A DNA stretch of 64,000 nucleotides from Pseudanabaena sp. (GTDB taxonomy: Bacteria; Cyanobacteriota; Cyanobacteriia; Pseudanabaenales; Pseudanabaenaceae): NCBI GenBank assembly GCA_003249035.1, contig QBMK01000002.1:82495-146494 (forward strand). Reading direction: 5' to 3'. Position numbers and translations under genes: made by a program. Positions 4,811 through 16,635 of this stretch are shown one piece after another (the first letter of the stretch is position 1; each line of letters starts with the position of its first letter). Below the pieces are notes generated by a model. That model did no database searches. It was given only the letters and a program-made list of their open reading frames with translations, and had not been told where the DNA came from.

Positions 4811-5071
4811 ATGACAACCCCACGATCAAATTCACTAAAAGGTGCAGATTTAGCAGACGACGCTGAGAATGATGCATATCGAGCCGAAGTAAATGGTGAT
4901 GAATCCGTTGGCGGCAGCACCGCAGTTCCCAATCAAAACGACACTGAAGAATTAGCGGAGGCGGTGGGGATTGTAGTAGATAATGACACACCCCTTGATA
5001 CTGAAGAAATGCTTCTAAAGCGCGATCGCGATCGCTGGGAATTAGATTCTGCATCGGCTGTCGATCATTAA
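4811..5071 (+). CDS. DUF6335 family protein, copy 1
   Basis: An 86-residue acidic, hydrophilic protein with the cyanobacterial DUF6335 pattern: a GGSTAVP element, the helix TEELAEAVGI, and a C-terminal RDRDRWELD block. No membrane or signal segment is present and the function is unknown. AGGAGAAAATAT gives a good ribosome-binding site. A second copy lies at 9144-9404; the products are identical at 74 of 86 positions and even share the leader AGGAGAAAATATATGACAA, but similarity stops outside the gene. The pyruvate-kinase-like gene starts 25 nt after the stop, probably in the same operon. Confidence 0.85.
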   Translation: MTTPRSNSLKGADLADDAENDAYRAEVNGDESVGGSTAVPNQNDTEELAEAVGIVVDNDTPLDTEEMLLKRDRDRWELDSASAVDH

Positions 5072-5096: not shown

Positions 5097-6662
5097 ATGC
5101 AAACTTTAACTTCAATTCCTAAGACAGATTATCAATCCACACCTTTTAATCTATCCACTCCACAAGGTTTATTATCAACTCTGCAAGAACTACGACAGAC
5201 AGTTGAGACTGAAGGGAAATTGACCTTTGATCAGTGGCGATCGCACATTGAACGTCCTGAATTTCTTGCCAGTGCCTTAAATCTGGCTGAATATCTGGCT
5301 CTGCGGCGACACGATCTGCGATCGCTTCAAGTTGCACTAAAGCCTTGGGGACTATCCTCATTGGGACGGATTGAAGCAAGGGTGATTGCCAATCTTGATG
5401 CGGTGATTACCACTTTGGAAGTTATCTGCGGCTCTGAATCTCATCAAAACCGACCACCGATTGAATTTTTTCTGGAGGGCGATCGCATACTCCAACAACA
5501 TACAGAAGAACTATTTGGCGACTCCCAACGCCGAGTCAGGATCATGGTCACGCTCGATACGGATGCGGCTACTGACTATGAGAAGGTACGAGAATTTATG
5601 CGATCGGGGGCAAACTGTATGCGAATTAACTGCGCCCACGACACCCCAGAGATTTGGGAGAACATGATCAAAAACATCCGTCATGCCGAACAGGAAACAG
5701 GAACAACCTGTAAAATCATGATGGACTTGGGTGGTCCAAAAATTCGCACAGGATCGGTACTTAGACCGCTTGATAAAAAACGGGTTTTTCTAGGAGATCA
5801 TATCCTGCTGTCACGCTCCCTGCCTGTCGTAAATGAGAAAAAAAGTGCATCAAAAGCCATTCCATCACCTGTAGATCACTTCCAAACTTGCTGTACCATT
5901 CCCTCCATTCTTGATTTATTAGAAGTTGATACTCCTGTATTCATTGATGATGGCAAGATTCAGTCGCGTGTGGTTGATCCTCAATATCTATTACCTGATG
6001 GAGAACTAGGGCTTTTATTAGAAGTCATAAATGCAAGCCCCAAAGGAGTCAAACTTTTGCCAGAAAAGGGCATGAATTTCCCAGATACAGCCTTGTCTCT
6101 GAGTCCATTGACTGAAAAAGACTTGTCTGACCTAGATTTTGTCGGTACTCACGCCGATATTATTGGTTACTCTTTTGTGCAACGACCTGCGGATATTGAG
6201 TTACTTCAACAGGAATTAGACAAACGCTTTGGCGCAAGTCTATGCCGACCCGCAATTGTGGCAAAGATTGAGACTGCGATCGCGGTTGCCAATCTTCCAG
6301 AATTGATCATCTATGCCGCAGGCAAACAATCCTTTGGGGTGATGATTGCCCGTGGTGACTTAGCGGTACAAATTGGCTATCAGCGTTTAGCCGAGATTCA
6401 AGAAGAGATTCTGTGGCTATGCGAAGCCGCTCATGTGCCTGTGATCTGGGCAACTCAAGTGCTAGAGAGTTTAGTCAAGACTGGCATCCCTTCCCGTGGA
6501 GAGATGACTGATGCCGCAATGGCAGAACGAGCTGAATGTGTAATGCTAAATAAGGGCGCTTTTGTGGGCAAAGCGATCGCAATTCTTGATGATGTTCTCA
6601 CGCGCATGGAAGCCCATCAATTGAAAAAAACGCCCCAATTACGGGCACTCCATTCATGGTAA
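5097..6662 (+). CDS. atypical pyruvate-kinase-like enzyme lacking the C-terminal domain
   Basis: A 521-residue protein. An N-terminal helical extension (1-145) with no recognised family is followed by a pyruvate kinase barrel with inserted B domain (146-505). Visible active-site elements are RINCAHD (canonical RLNFSH), GGPKIRTG (canonical KGPEIRTG), FIDDGKI, VAKIET with the catalytic Lys and metal Glu, ARGDLAVQ with the metal Asp, and WATQVLES. The canonical MLSGETA after the barrel is MLNKG here, and the protein ends soon after, without the allosteric C-terminal domain of ordinary enzymes. It may make ATP and pyruvate from phosphoenolpyruvate without the usual control, or act on another substrate. 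It is co-directional with DUF6335 and followed by a terminator. Confidence 0.75.
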   Translation: MQTLTSIPKTDYQSTPFNLSTPQGLLSTLQELRQTVETEGKLTFDQWRSHIERPEFLASALNLAEYLALRRHDLRSLQVALKPWGLSSLGRIEARVIANLDAVITTLEVICGSESHQNRPPIEFFLEGDRILQQHTEELFGDSQRRVRIMVTLDTDAATDYEKVREFMRSGANCMRINCAHDTPEIWENMIKNIRHAEQETGTTCKIMMDLGGPKIRTGSVLRPLDKKRVFLGDHILLSRSLPVVNEKKSASKAIPSPVDHFQTCCTIPSILDLLEVDTPVFIDDGKIQSRVVDPQYLLPDGELGLLLEVINASPKGVKLLPEKGMNFPDTALSLSPLTEKDLSDLDFVGTHADIIGYSFVQRPADIELLQQELDKRFGASLCRPAIVAKIETAIAVANLPELIIYAAGKQSFGVMIARGDLAVQIGYQRLAEIQEEILWLCEAAHVPVIWATQVLESLVKTGIPSRGEMTDAAMAERAECVMLNKGAFVGKAIAILDDVLTRMEAHQLKKTPQLRALHSW

Positions 6663-6681
6663 GCAGCTATGAACAGAACCA

Positions 6682-6720
6682 AAACGTGAGTCGCTCGCAA
6701 AGCGGGCGACTCACGTTTTT
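6682..6720 (+). terminator. intrinsic terminator after the pyruvate-kinase-like gene
   Basis: An 18-bp stem (6682-6699 with 6703-6720, one G-T wobble) with an AAA loop; the right arm ends in TTTT and one more T follows. It begins 19 nt after the stop codon. Confidence 0.85.
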
Positions 6721-6759
6721 AGACTAGCTACTTCCATCTTCTAAATGGTAATACTCACT

Positions 6760-7746
6760 ATGAAAGTTTCTATTTTTAGTACAAAATCATACGATCGCCA
6801 ATTTTTTACAGCCGCTAATGCCAAATATCAGCATGAAATGACATTTTTAGAATCACGGCTCGACCATCAAACCGCTCTACTCGCAAAAGGTGCGATCGCT
6901 GTCTGTGTCTTTGTCAATGATGAAGTCGATAAGAAGACTATAGAAGCTCTTGCTAGTCAGAATGTGAGCCTAATTGCGCTGCGTTCGGCTGGGTATAACC
7001 ATGTCGATGTGCAAGCCGCTAAAAATATGGGCATCAAACTGGTGCGAGTACCCGCTTATTCTCCCCATGCAGTCGCCGAGCATACTGTCGGACTAATCCT
7101 CACCCTCAACCGCAAACTCCATCGGGCTTATAATCGAGTCCGTGAGGGCAACTTTTCGCTAGAAGGATTGCTGGGATTTGATTTACACGGTCGCACGATT
7201 GGCATTATCGGCTCAGGTCGAATTGGCGCAGTCGTTGCCAAAATCATGACGGGGTTTGGCTGCAAGGTGATTGCCTACGATCTCTACCATAATCCTCAAT
7301 GTGAAGCGATCTCAGTTCGATATGTCGATATGCCTCAACTTCTATCCCAATCTGATATTATCTCCATTCACTGTCCATTAACTTCTGAGACTTATCACTT
7401 AGTAGATAAGAAGGCGATCGCCCAAATGAAGCCCCATGTCATGCTGATTAATACCAGTCGCGGCGCATTGATCGACACAAATGCCGTCATCACCGCACTC
7501 AAATCATCACAAATTGGCGCATTAGGATTAGATGTATACGAACAAGAATTAGAACTATTCTTTGAAGATCGCTCAGATCGGATTCTTCAAGATGATACCT
7601 TTGCCCGACTGATGACTTTTCCTAATGTAATGATTACTGGACATCAGGCATTCTTTACTGAAGATGCGATGCAGGCGATCGCCGAAGTAACGTTAGCGAA
7701 CATCACGCAAATAGAACAAGGACAGATTTGTGAAAATGAAATTTAG
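6760..7746 (+). CDS. ldhA: D-lactate dehydrogenase (2-hydroxyacid dehydrogenase family)
   Basis: A 328-residue D-isomer-specific 2-hydroxyacid dehydrogenase of the fermentative LdhA kind. It begins with the typical MKVSIFSTKSYD, has the NAD-binding motif GSGRIG (Rossmann fold, about 152-157), and carries the catalytic triad: Arg in NTSRG, Glu in DVYEQE and His in GHQAF. It reduces pyruvate to D-lactate with NADH. I start at the ATG at 6760; an in-frame ATG at 6745 would add five non-conserved residues, and neither has a strong ribosome-binding site. It lies next to a pyruvate-kinase-like gene and near a phosphoglycerate mutase, which suggests dark fermentation. Confidence 0.9.
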   Translation: MKVSIFSTKSYDRQFFTAANAKYQHEMTFLESRLDHQTALLAKGAIAVCVFVNDEVDKKTIEALASQNVSLIALRSAGYNHVDVQAAKNMGIKLVRVPAYSPHAVAEHTVGLILTLNRKLHRAYNRVREGNFSLEGLLGFDLHGRTIGIIGSGRIGAVVAKIMTGFGCKVIAYDLYHNPQCEAISVRYVDMPQLLSQSDIISIHCPLTSETYHLVDKKAIAQMKPHVMLINTSRGALIDTNAVITALKSSQIGALGLDVYEQELELFFEDRSDRILQDDTFARLMTFPNVMITGHQAFFTEDAMQAIAEVTLANITQIEQGQICENEI

Positions 7747-8279: not shown

Positions 8280-8978
8280 TCAATCGTTTAGAATTTTTTT
8301 AGAGATCACTTCTCCAGAGACATCAAGGTCATAAACAATCGGCACACCCGTTGCTAATTCTAGGGCTGTTACTTCCTCTGGACTTAGGCGATCGAGCATC
8401 ATAATGATGGAACGTAAAGAGTTCCCATGAGCAGCAATGAGAACGTTTTCGCCTTGAAGTAAATGCGGCAGAATACGGATTTTGAAATAAGCAATTACTC
8501 GCTTTTGCGTATCCTCTAAACTCTCTCCCCCTGGTGGTCGAACGCTGTAAGACCGCCGCCATTCATGAACCTTTTTATCGCCATACTTGATCGCAGTTTC
8601 GGCTTTATTTAAGCCCTGCAATTCACCATAAAACCGCTCATCAAGGGCAGCATTTGTAAAAACAGGTAACTCTTCGTCTGGGTTCCCATCGTAACTATCC
8701 CAGCCATGCCAGTCTTGGTCGGATTGTTCGTGCTTAATAATCGGAATTTTGCCACCACAGATATCATCGCGTTCTGTTAGGCAAATTGTCGCTGTCTCGA
8801 TCGCCCGAATTAATTTGCTAGTAAAACAGACATTTACGCGATAACCACTGAGCCGACAAGAGGCGATCGTTGCTTCAGCTCGACCACGTTCACTTAATGG
8901 GACATCTACCCATCCCGTGAATTTGTTAAGCGCATTCCAAAGGCTTTGTCCATGCCGAACTAAGATAAGTTGAGCCAT
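8280..8978 (-). CDS. gpmA: 2,3-bisphosphoglycerate-dependent phosphoglycerate mutase
   Basis: A 232-residue histidine-phosphatase-fold enzyme. The catalytic motif LVRHGQSLWN places the phosphorylated histidine at residue 9. The classical dPGM block FTGWVDVPLSERG follows, and the second catalytic histidine is in AAHGNSLR; ERFYGELQGLNK and the RSYSVRPPGG lid are also conserved. It interconverts 3- and 2-phosphoglycerate. It stands opposite lower-glycolysis genes (pyruvate-kinase-like and D-LDH), so this part of the window covers several steps of the route to lactate; enolase is absent. Confidence 0.93.
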   Translation of the reverse strand: MAQLILVRHGQSLWNALNKFTGWVDVPLSERGRAEATIASCRLSGYRVNVCFTSKLIRAIETATICLTERDDICGGKIPIIKHEQSDQDWHGWDSYDGNPDEELPVFTNAALDERFYGELQGLNKAETAIKYGDKKVHEWRRSYSVRPPGGESLEDTQKRVIAYFKIRILPHLLQGENVLIAAHGNSLRSIIMMLDRLSPEEVTALELATGVPIVYDLDVSGEVISKKILND

Positions 8979-9143: not shown

Positions 9144-9404
9144 ATGACAAAACCACGGTCGCATTCATTAACAGGTGCAGATTCCTCCGACGATGCGGAG
9201 AATGATGCCTATCGAGCCGAAGTAAATGGTGATGAAGCCGTTGGTGGTAGCACCGCAGTTCCCAGCCAAAATGACACAGAAGAATTGGCGGAAGCGGTGG
9301 GAATTGTGATACATGATGACACTCCCATTGATACTGAAGAAATGCTCCTAAAGCGCGATCGCGATCGCTGGGAATTGAATTCTGCATCGGCTGTCGATCA
9401 TTAG
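9144..9404 (+). CDS. DUF6335 family protein, copy 2
   Basis: An 86-residue paralogue of the gene at 4811, with 12 substitutions, mostly conservative, and the same GGSTAVP, TEELAEAVGI and RDRDRWEL blocks. The Shine-Dalgarno region AGGAGAAAATAT is identical. The two copies bracket the fermentation-type genes. The function is unknown. A short gap follows before the azoreductase gene (64 nt, same strand). Confidence 0.85.
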   Translation: MTKPRSHSLTGADSSDDAENDAYRAEVNGDEAVGGSTAVPSQNDTEELAEAVGIVIHDDTPIDTEEMLLKRDRDRWELNSASAVDH

Positions 9405-15605: not shown

Positions 15606-16073
15606 ATGACAGAAGAACTGCAAGAATTTATCGAGGCAAATCGGGATGCAAGAGAATTAAAGAGAGGTGTATCAGTACAAATGTATCTCGAAGGATATAA
15701 ACATCGGGAGATCAAAGATATTTTGGGCGTGGGTTCGGGATATGTCAGTAAATGGACGAAAATATATGTGGATAAGGGATTAGAGGGATTATTGCTAGGA
15801 TATAAAGGTAAGTCAAGTTATCTGAGCGAAATGCAAAGCCAAGCAATAAATGCATGGTTACAGGCTAAGAATTATTGGAACTTGGTAGAATTACAAGAAT
15901 ATCTTGAGGATGAGTACAACGTAGCATTTGAGTCTAAGCAAAGCTATTACGCCATATTTGAGAAAGCTGGAATTAGCTGGAAAAAGACGCAAAAGCACAA
16001 TCCAAAAGGAAACCCGACCATTATTCAAAAAAAAAGAGGAGATTACAGAATGGCTAGAAAAGCATCGTCCTGA
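15606..16073 (+). CDS. IS630-type transposase, frame A (DNA-binding half)
   Basis: The 155-residue first frame holds two helix-turn-helix units: REIKDILGVGSGYVSKWTKIYVDKGLEGLL, then a second Leu-rich homeodomain-like unit (VELQEYLEDEYNV and YYAIFEKAGISWKKT). They bind the terminal repeats. The frame reads through an A9 stretch (16,027-16,035) into a short tail; the catalytic half lies in the +1 frame. AGGG precedes the ATG at 8-10 nt. Confidence 0.82.
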   Translation: MTEELQEFIEANRDARELKRGVSVQMYLEGYKHREIKDILGVGSGYVSKWTKIYVDKGLEGLLLGYKGKSSYLSEMQSQAINAWLQAKNYWNLVELQEYLEDEYNVAFESKQSYYAIFEKAGISWKKTQKHNPKGNPTIIQKKRGDYRMARKASS

Positions 16074-16635
16074 GATCATTACTGAGAAGTTAGCTGTATT
16101 TTTTGCTGACGAATGTCATTTGCTATGGGGAGATATTTGTGGATATGTGTGGGGCAAAAAACAAGAACGTATTGAAATACCGATCACCAATGAACGAGAG
16201 CGACAGACCTATTATGGGGCTGTGAACCTGTATACACAGGAATGTGTAATTCAAGCGTCTAGTGCAGGTAATTCTGAGGGTACTGTAGCTTTTCTGAAAT
16301 ATTTACAGGGTCAGAATGAAGACAGGCGAATTGCTATAATCTGGGATGGCGCTAGCTATCATCGTTCTCAAGAGGTAAAAGATTATCTTGCTCTAACCAA
16401 TCATGAACTTGAAGAGTCAGCTTGGAAAATTACTTGTATCCGTTTTGCACCTAACGACCCGAAACAAAATCCAATTGAAGATATTTGGTTACATGCCAAG
16501 CGATTTATTCGTGAGTTCTATCATTTATGTAAATCTTTTGCGGCGGTTAAGTTCTTTTTTGAGTTTATTACGCATCGACAAATCTTTAACTTTCCCAAGC
16601 TTTTTACCTATGGCTTTTTCTCACAAATCAATTAG
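16027..16635 (+). CDS. IS630-type transposase, frame B (catalytic half)
   Basis: The 202-residue continuation in the +1 frame carries the DDE active site: Asp in VFFADECHL, Asp in AIIWDGASYH, and Glu in NPIEDIWLHAK. It has no good start of its own; expression by +1 (or -2) slippage on the A9 run joins KKR of frame A to KKKEEITEWLE of frame B, a common arrangement in IS630 elements. I mark it from the slippery run, not from an upstream ATG in the same frame (15,928) that would be inside frame A. Confidence 0.8.
   Translation, partial: KKKEEITEWLEKHRPEIITEKLAVFFADECHLLWGDICGYVWGKKQERIEIPITNERERQTYYGAVNLYTQECVIQASSAGNSEGTVAFLKYLQGQNEDRRIAIIWDGASYHRSQEVKDYLALTNHELEESAWKITCIRFAPNDPKQNPIEDIWLHAKRFIREFYHLCKSFAAVKFFFEFITHRQIFNFPKLFTYGFFSQIN

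Follow-up and report, generated by a model that had tools for sequence, protein, structure and literature searches.

Organization of the locus

The window analysed here is the whole 64-kb stretch of DNA. On its forward strand, an ORF with an ATG start (5097..6662) and an AAGGA-type ribosome site 5′ of that ATG encodes a pyruvate kinase (PK)-like protein of 521 aa, which we call PKL. The ORF is confirmed as a real gene: comparison with its relative at locus L005 gives a dN/dS of ~0.11 (0.119/1.043) and homologues are present in five groups of bacteria, which together place it beyond chance. Purifying selection acts on the window PKL, and a decaying gene is rejected by the same ratio. The genome (G000, 4.55 Mb in 60 contigs) carries four PK-barrel genes, namely two canonical ones, PKL and a paralogue at C22:301173.

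A small DUF6335 protein (PF19861) is encoded upstream on the forward strand (4811..5071); 25 nt separate the end of its gene from the PKL start, and this spacing suggests that both lie on the same transcript. A closely similar DUF6335 gene (9144-9404) is found just upstream of a flavodoxin-fold gene. Downstream of PKL is an intrinsic-terminator-like hairpin with a T tail (6681..6719, forward strand; 18 pairs, −30.6 kcal/mol, z −8.3), a structure absent from the output of the consensus terminator scan. Next comes a forward-strand gene (6745..7746; the start may be the ATG at 6760) assigned by Pfam to the D-2-hydroxyacid dehydrogenases and resembling D-lactate dehydrogenase (LDH); its best NCBIfam matches are D-lactate dehydrogenases, all under their cut-offs. 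The strong terminator between the two genes makes their co-transcription in the window doubtful and weakens the case for a PKL-LDH operon there. A 2,3-bisphosphoglycerate-dependent phosphoglycerate mutase (NF002217, 352 bits, cut-off 320) is encoded on the reverse strand (8280..8978), and members of the same ORF cluster lie near PKL in L071 and L110. Elsewhere in the window, positions 613-2334 encode a 573-aa protein in which a HAD-type (sucrose-phosphatase-like) hydrolase is fused to a HerA/DUF87-like P-loop domain, and an IS630-like transposase, recognized by eye, spans two overlapping ORFs at 15606-16635.

PKL belongs to a separate branch of pyruvate kinases

PKL residues 145-486 (5529..6554, forward strand) match the PK barrel family PF00224 with an E value of 1.7e-46 and 159.3 bits against a cut-off of 30. 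The match includes the lid (B) domain, whose limits, roughly residues 218 to 323, were read from the alignment, and it agrees with the strand and helix order of the AlphaFold model (pLDDT 88.1, pTM 0.87), whose confidence is high for barrel and lid. A Foldseek search with this model gave human PKM2 as the top match (E 3.4e-26), and the best 50 folds listed were all PKs; barrel and lid thus place PKL in the PK superfamily by Pfam, AlphaFold and Foldseek. An identity as HpcH/HpaI aldolase was discarded, the PF03328 match being sub-threshold only (19.5 bits, cut-off 25). The absence of the C-terminal (allosteric) PK domain, part of the original prediction, was borne out: Pfam finds no match to it, so that the canonical A/B/C architecture is lacking, and the chain ends 35 residues past the barrel match (486 of 521).

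The nearest NCBIfam model is NF011314 (PRK14725), a model of 614 positions named 'pyruvate kinase' (E 1.4e-168). At 562 bits, PKL lies under the curated cut-off of 642 and hence outside the equivalog, apparently because a segment of ~110 aa near the lid is missing, the model matching in two stretches. Of the long forms (about 600-630 aa, with ~110 aa extra near the lid), two exceed the cut-off (710.6 bits for L126 and 709.4 for L022), while the divergent long form L123 falls just under it (623) and the short forms scored (window, L010, L013 and L017) are all below. The layout of the NF011314 branch is that of PKL, with an N-terminal domain, a barrel and no C domain. In a tree of 69 rows (midpoint root, for drawing only), 56 PKL sequences are split from 13 canonical PKs with 100/100 support, and the window PKL groups with the cut-off-passing L126 and L022, which makes it a member of the NF011314 branch. 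A phylogeny with canonical PKs had been proposed earlier as a check, and it sets PKL apart from them. Within its own tree group of six rows the window sequence has the longest end branch (0.22).

Residue conservation was counted over 114 aligned branch members, among which the window sequence is L078; the split loci L016, L020, L073, L155 and L156, plus L098, are left out of the alignment. The branch-specific N-terminal helical domain (about residues 22-145; 5160..5531, forward strand) was delimited from the AlphaFold model, with helices at residues 22-50, 54-70, 75-84, 88-91, 96-111 and 122-140, and from conservation, with N62 and L81 in 114/114 members, Y66 and R70 in 110/114 and Q78 in 109/114. 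PKL residues 1-144 match no Pfam family at E≤1, and the domain modelled alone (pLDDT 85, pTM 0.68) has no PDB fold match at E≤0.001 with Foldseek. The statement that the first 145 residues match nothing therefore holds for Pfam and the PDB but not for the branch: as judged from the alignment, they contain a domain conserved within a branch for which NCBI already has a model under the name pyruvate kinase. A CHAD-like polyphosphate binder was also considered for this domain and is unsupported, with no CHAD match in Pfam and no Foldseek match at E≤0.001.

A scan of genome contigs detected 24 relatives in cyanobacteria, Anaerolineae, Paracoccus, Burkholderiales/Hydrogenophilales and Bacteroidota, the last including Saprospiraceae, Winogradskyella, Robertkochia, Flagellimonas and others. 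A profile of the N-terminal domain found matches in 50/386 cyanobacterial genomes (four with a degenerate form only and one, G350, with a short weak match), in 25/200 genomes of the order of L019 (Burkholderiales), in 8/196 of the Winogradskyella order and in 6/289 of the Paracoccus class. PKL copies also occur in 12 plasmid records, 8 of which cover at least 80% of the query. Bearer genomes usually retain a canonical PK alongside PKL; in the 25 bearers from Betaproteobacteria the match was full in 23, partial and at a contig end in one, and lacking in one. In the last of these (G540, a 2.4 Mb assembly of L019's order) PKL was found and canonical PK was not, and in G610 the canonical enzyme is present only as the contig-end fragment; these cases could reflect incomplete assemblies or replacement.

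Two subgroups depart from the common pattern. Relatives of 360-369 aa that carry the N-terminal domain occur in four genomes of one genus (L117-L120; G056, G117, G342 and G253), and in L117 the barrel motifs NCAHD, KIE and GD are gone, so that from its residues this protein is an apparent pseudoenzyme. A divergent long PK-like form of 606-613 aa is found at L122-L124 (family f2); the L123 stretch also encodes TrkA-like, CorA-like and phosphate-binding (PstS-like) proteins and a CHAD gene, all but CHAD recognized by eye. The branch is apparently known so far only as the NF011314 'pyruvate kinase', widespread and unstudied: in literature that lacks most subscription papers, we found none on the branch or its polyphosphate link and none naming PRK14725. 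We know of no measured activity for any member.

Catalytic residues are kept and two loops are remodelled

PKL residues R176, N178, D210, R217, K390, E392, D421 and T453 align to E. coli PykF R32, N34, D66, R73, K220, E222, D246 and T278. The Arg/Asn/Asp/Arg/Lys/Glu/Asp/Thr catalytic set of the superfamily is thus complete in the window PKL, in agreement with the original prediction for the catalytic Lys, the metal Glu and Asp, and Arg. Over the branch, R176 is present in 113 of the 114 members and each of the other seven in all 114. Similar conservation, 111-114 of 114, applies to N178 and R217 (114), H181 (112) and K324 (111), which we take to be the nucleotide-phosphate ligands equivalent to human N75, H78, R120 and K207. 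The window PKL itself deviates at two near-invariant sites of the 114-member alignment, with D154 in place of Pro and Q425 in place of Glu.

Two loops differ from canonical PKs. The sequence MLNKG (residues 483-487; 6543..6557, forward strand), within CVMLNKGAFV, replaces MLSGE(S/T)AxG, which reads MLSGESAVG, MLSNETAVG and similar in canonical ORFs. This change had been described as MLSGETA to MLNKG; the motif is there, but the loop is shortened by 4 residues and not only substituted, so that the canonical MLSGE(S/T)A loop is absent. N485, K486 and G487 are each found in 114/114 branch members. In canonical PKs the MLSGE loop contributes its Ser and Glu to the enolpyruvate proton relay, and PKL lacks both. 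The adenine-side loop is mostly TLPxEAA across the branch where canonical PKs have TIGPAS. D182 (111/114) and W187 (113/114), at the positions of PykF G38 and H43, are changed throughout the branch, and W451 (114/114) is a further mark. In the alignment, conservation extends to the residues that serve PEP, metal and nucleotide phosphates, and remodelling to the adenine-side and MLSGE(S/T)AxG loops.

The sequence GGPKIRTG, within DLGGPKIRTG (residues 210-219), had been singled out as a departure from KGPEIRTG, with Lys in place of Glu. It is present, but its Lys occurs in 15/15 canonical cyanobacterial PK ORFs. This residue, K215, corresponds to rabbit position 117 and is Lys in 110/114 branch members and Arg in 4/114; L211, the equivalent of Leu113, is Leu in 111/114. 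According to PMC8835810, Lys117 marks K+-independent PKs, and K+-independence is also treated in PMC5501398 and PMC4284704; GGPKIRTG was therefore rejected as pointing to a new substrate. PKL has both Lys117 and Leu113, and resembles the canonical K+-independent PKs (PMC8835810, PMC5501398) in barrel, lid and catalytic residues as well. Unlike them, it lacks the C domain and has the extra N-terminal domain and the motifs MLNKG, RINCAHD, WATQVLE and LAVExG. A further difference lies at positions 114 and 120, where Gln and Leu/Ile/Val are found in 77% of Lys117 sequences (PMC8835810) and PKL has G212 and T218; over the branch the first is Ala in 70, Ser in 24, Gly in 16 and Pro in 4 of 114 members, and the second Thr in 78, Ile in 21 and Leu in 12.

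Polyphosphate genes adjoin PKL more often than canonical PKs

We compared the neighbourhoods of PKL and canonical PK genes by scanning six-frame translations within 7 kb with local HMMs for CHAD, PPK1, PPK2, Ppx and PEP synthase; the ORFs of 90 neighbourhoods were clustered before the scan. The HMMs derive from neighbours of PKL, and distant relatives in the controls may escape them; the controls were 40 canonical-PK neighbourhoods (20 cyanobacterial and 20 betaproteobacterial) from a subset of PKL-bearing genomes (14 and 20, respectively). The 120 PKL loci exclude the duplicates L068 and L085, the degenerate L117-L120 and the weak short N-domain match G350, and group labels such as 'Betaproteobacteria' were taken from the order or class to which the named central locus belongs.

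A polyphosphate gene (CHAD, PPK1, PPK2 or Ppx) was found at 34/120 PKL loci and 0/40 canonical PK loci (Fisher p 2.5e-5). Such genes lie at 21/70 cyanobacterial loci (CHAD 17, PPK2 4), 11/28 betaproteobacterial loci (CHAD 10, PPK1 6, Ppx 6, PPK2 2), 1/6 alphaproteobacterial loci (PPK2, L017) and 1/14 Bacteroidota loci (PPK2, L028, with ABC transporter genes upstream that look Pst-like by eye). The remaining 86/120 loci have none within 7 kb, including 13/14 in Bacteroidota, 5/6 in Alphaproteobacteria and 2/2 in Chloroflexi. Contig ends leave less than 7 kb on one side in 64/120 PKL stretches and 10/40 controls; PKL stretches are thus the more often truncated, which disfavours the association. 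The branch is linked to ppk, ppx and CHAD genes above chance; the window itself is without such genes, and no local-HMM match to CHAD, PPK1, PPK2, Ppx or PEP synthase was found anywhere in its 64 kb.

An independent search with Pfam CHAD placed this domain within 7 kb of PKL in 17/59 PKL-bearing cyanobacterial genomes (G056, G117, G253 and G342, which are degenerate, and G350 excluded), where random placement expects 0.21; in the 20 cyanobacterial controls, the Pfam CHAD places also fall outside the control stretches. One family (f1) supplies 12 of the 17 CHAD-linked genomes, and since related genomes are not independent, p-values overstate the linkage. By lineage, the CHAD link appears in families f1, f2 and f8 and in Nodosilinea (L008), and again in Betaproteobacteria. 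Gene order varies, CHAD preceding PKL in L008, L061 and L069-L076 and following it in L065-L068. Mere co-presence in a genome is uninformative, as CHAD (59/59) and PPK2 (57/59) are almost universal in bearers.

Pfam confirmed CHAD in L071 and L061, CYTH-CHAD in L021, L126 and L141, PPK2 in L010 and L028, PPK1 in L141, L136 and L143, Ppx in L126 and L136, and PEP synthase in L010 and L082. Polyphosphate gene clusters (ppk1, ppx, CYTH/CHAD) contain PKL at some betaproteobacterial loci. At L136 and L143, ppx, PKL, PPK2, CHAD and ppk1 lie in one stretch (PPK2 and CHAD by local HMM only; Pfam confirms ppk1 at the two loci and ppx at L136). L136 also encodes a histidine phosphatase (Pfam), presumably SixA-like. 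CHAD domains bind inorganic polyphosphate according to PMC6537752, and the main text of this CHAD polyphosphate-module paper gives 0 matches to the word 'pyruvate'. Beside the PKL paralogue of the window's genome (L069:8181-9175; G000:C22), the CHAD gene is frameshifted into two ORFs, and an intact separate CHAD gene is present on contig C55.

Genes for pyruvate use form a second theme. PEP synthase lies within 7 kb at 15/70 cyanobacterial PKL loci and 0/20 controls; paired with a PK, it would run a futile cycle in the absence of regulation. Cyanobacterial fermentative islands (PFOR, hydrogenase, PFK, lactate dehydrogenase) are found near PKL at L010, L061, L077, L096, L110 and in the window, and unlike one conserved operon these genes adjoin PKL at some loci only. 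In L110 the genes after PKL encode an L-lactate dehydrogenase (TIGR01771, over cut-off) and a phosphoglycerate mutase of the window's type; unrelated lactate dehydrogenases in the same place, D- in the window and L- in L110, suggest from these two loci that pyruvate is the point. PKL of L096 lies between NuoF-like and hydrogenase small-subunit-like genes (both below NCBI cut-offs) with PFOR downstream, L061 has, to one side and no more than 10 kb away, hypB (over cut-off), PFK and PFOR, and L010 has PEP synthase, PFK and PFOR.

Proposed role of PKL

Taken with the fold, residue conservation, branch position and controlled gene context, the presence of a second PK without a C domain among polyphosphate and fermentation genes points to an isozyme for energy-limited conditions. 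We consider it probable, though by no means assured, that PKL is a PK isozyme free of C-domain allostery that serves under energy limitation and is tied to the polyphosphate pool and fermentation. It would move the phosphate of PEP to ADP, yielding pyruvate and ATP, at an active site of the K+-independent type. The N-terminal domain may stand in for the lost domain, either in packing and oligomerisation or in docking. Such an enzyme could supply energy when respiration or light is limiting, its pyruvate passing to lactate, PFOR/hydrogen or acetate fermentation, and its ATP or PEP flux might be balanced against the polyphosphate pool that the PPK1, PPK2, Ppx and CHAD proteins encoded nearby handle. 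Against this reading stand the 86/120 loci with no polyphosphate gene within 7 kb, the lack of such genes and of PEP synthase in the window, the terminator ahead of the LDH gene, the loss of the MLSGE-loop Ser and Glu, an N-terminal domain that resembles no polyphosphate-binding fold, and the futile cycle to be expected from unregulated PEP synthase. The suggestion in the original prediction of a constitutive enzyme is plausible, as a short C-terminal end without C domain is common to aligned members; a changed substrate, its other suggestion, is possible from the sequence.

An ordinary redundant PK that has shed its C domain, with neighbours owed to general stress or to islands moved horizontally and not to a functional tie, would account for the patchy cyanobacterial distribution (50/386), the plasmid copies, the 86 loci without polyphosphate genes and their absence from the window. 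We regard it as unlikely in view of the 34/120 against 0/40 comparison and because the association, with varied gene orders and polyphosphate enzymes, recurs in Cyanobacteria and Betaproteobacteria and is seen once each in Alphaproteobacteria and Bacteroidota; conservation of the N-terminal domain and MLNKG across the branch also argues against simple loss.

It is improbable that PKL is a polyphosphate-linked glycolytic enzyme, whether a PEP:polyphosphate phosphotransferase or a PK docked to polyphosphate granules; if true, this would give bacteria of at least two phyla a direct route between PEP and the polyphosphate store. For the phosphotransferase proper, we judge the chances to be poor. 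The terminal phosphate of polyphosphate would replace ADP as acceptor, or act in reverse as donor, so that glycolysis would build polyphosphate directly, with the N-terminal domain or a CHAD partner presenting the polymer. Clusters with ppk1, ppx, PPK2 and CHAD are consistent with this, as are the kept phosphate-binding residues beside an adenine-side loop and D182/W187 changed branch-wide, and the canonical PK in 23/25 bearers of L019's order would already cover ordinary PK activity. However, PKL shares its nucleotide-phosphate ligands with PKs that use ADP, many members stand beside fermentation genes without a polyphosphate gene, neighbouring PPKs can equally link polyphosphate through ATP, and no such enzyme was found in a literature search that had most subscription papers outside it.

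A barrel of changed chemistry (aldolase, lyase or PEP mutase-like) that has lost phosphate transfer, as the weak sub-threshold PF03328 HpcH_HpaI match and the altered MLSGE loop might suggest, is very hard to reconcile with a PK catalytic set that 113-114 of 114 members retain, a lid Lys in 111/114 and exclusively PK folds among the best 50 listed. A non-catalytic regulatory relative, for which the 360-369 aa proteins of four genomes and the missing catalytic barrel residues of L117 could be cited, is highly improbable, as L117-L120 are a different, degenerate subgroup and the window PKL keeps all listed catalytic residues under purifying selection.

PKL represents a PK branch without the classical allosteric domain, one that databases label simply 'pyruvate kinase' yet which has its own domain and active-site loop. 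The link between glycolysis and polyphosphate has long been discussed for phosphate-accumulating and fermenting bacteria. The PKL gene context around polyphosphate is the new observation and makes this link to the energy store concrete: in distant bacteria, polyphosphate genes are much commoner beside the branch than beside canonical PKs.

Some PEP synthases near PKL are themselves unusual. Those at L082:1801-5421 and L088:4577-8194 are 1205-1207 aa long with an intein-like insert, and similar lengths occur in L090 and L092-L094. The L082 insert has a Pfam splicing-domain match (E 1e-8) scoring just under the cut-off and a LAGLIDADG-like match also below it.
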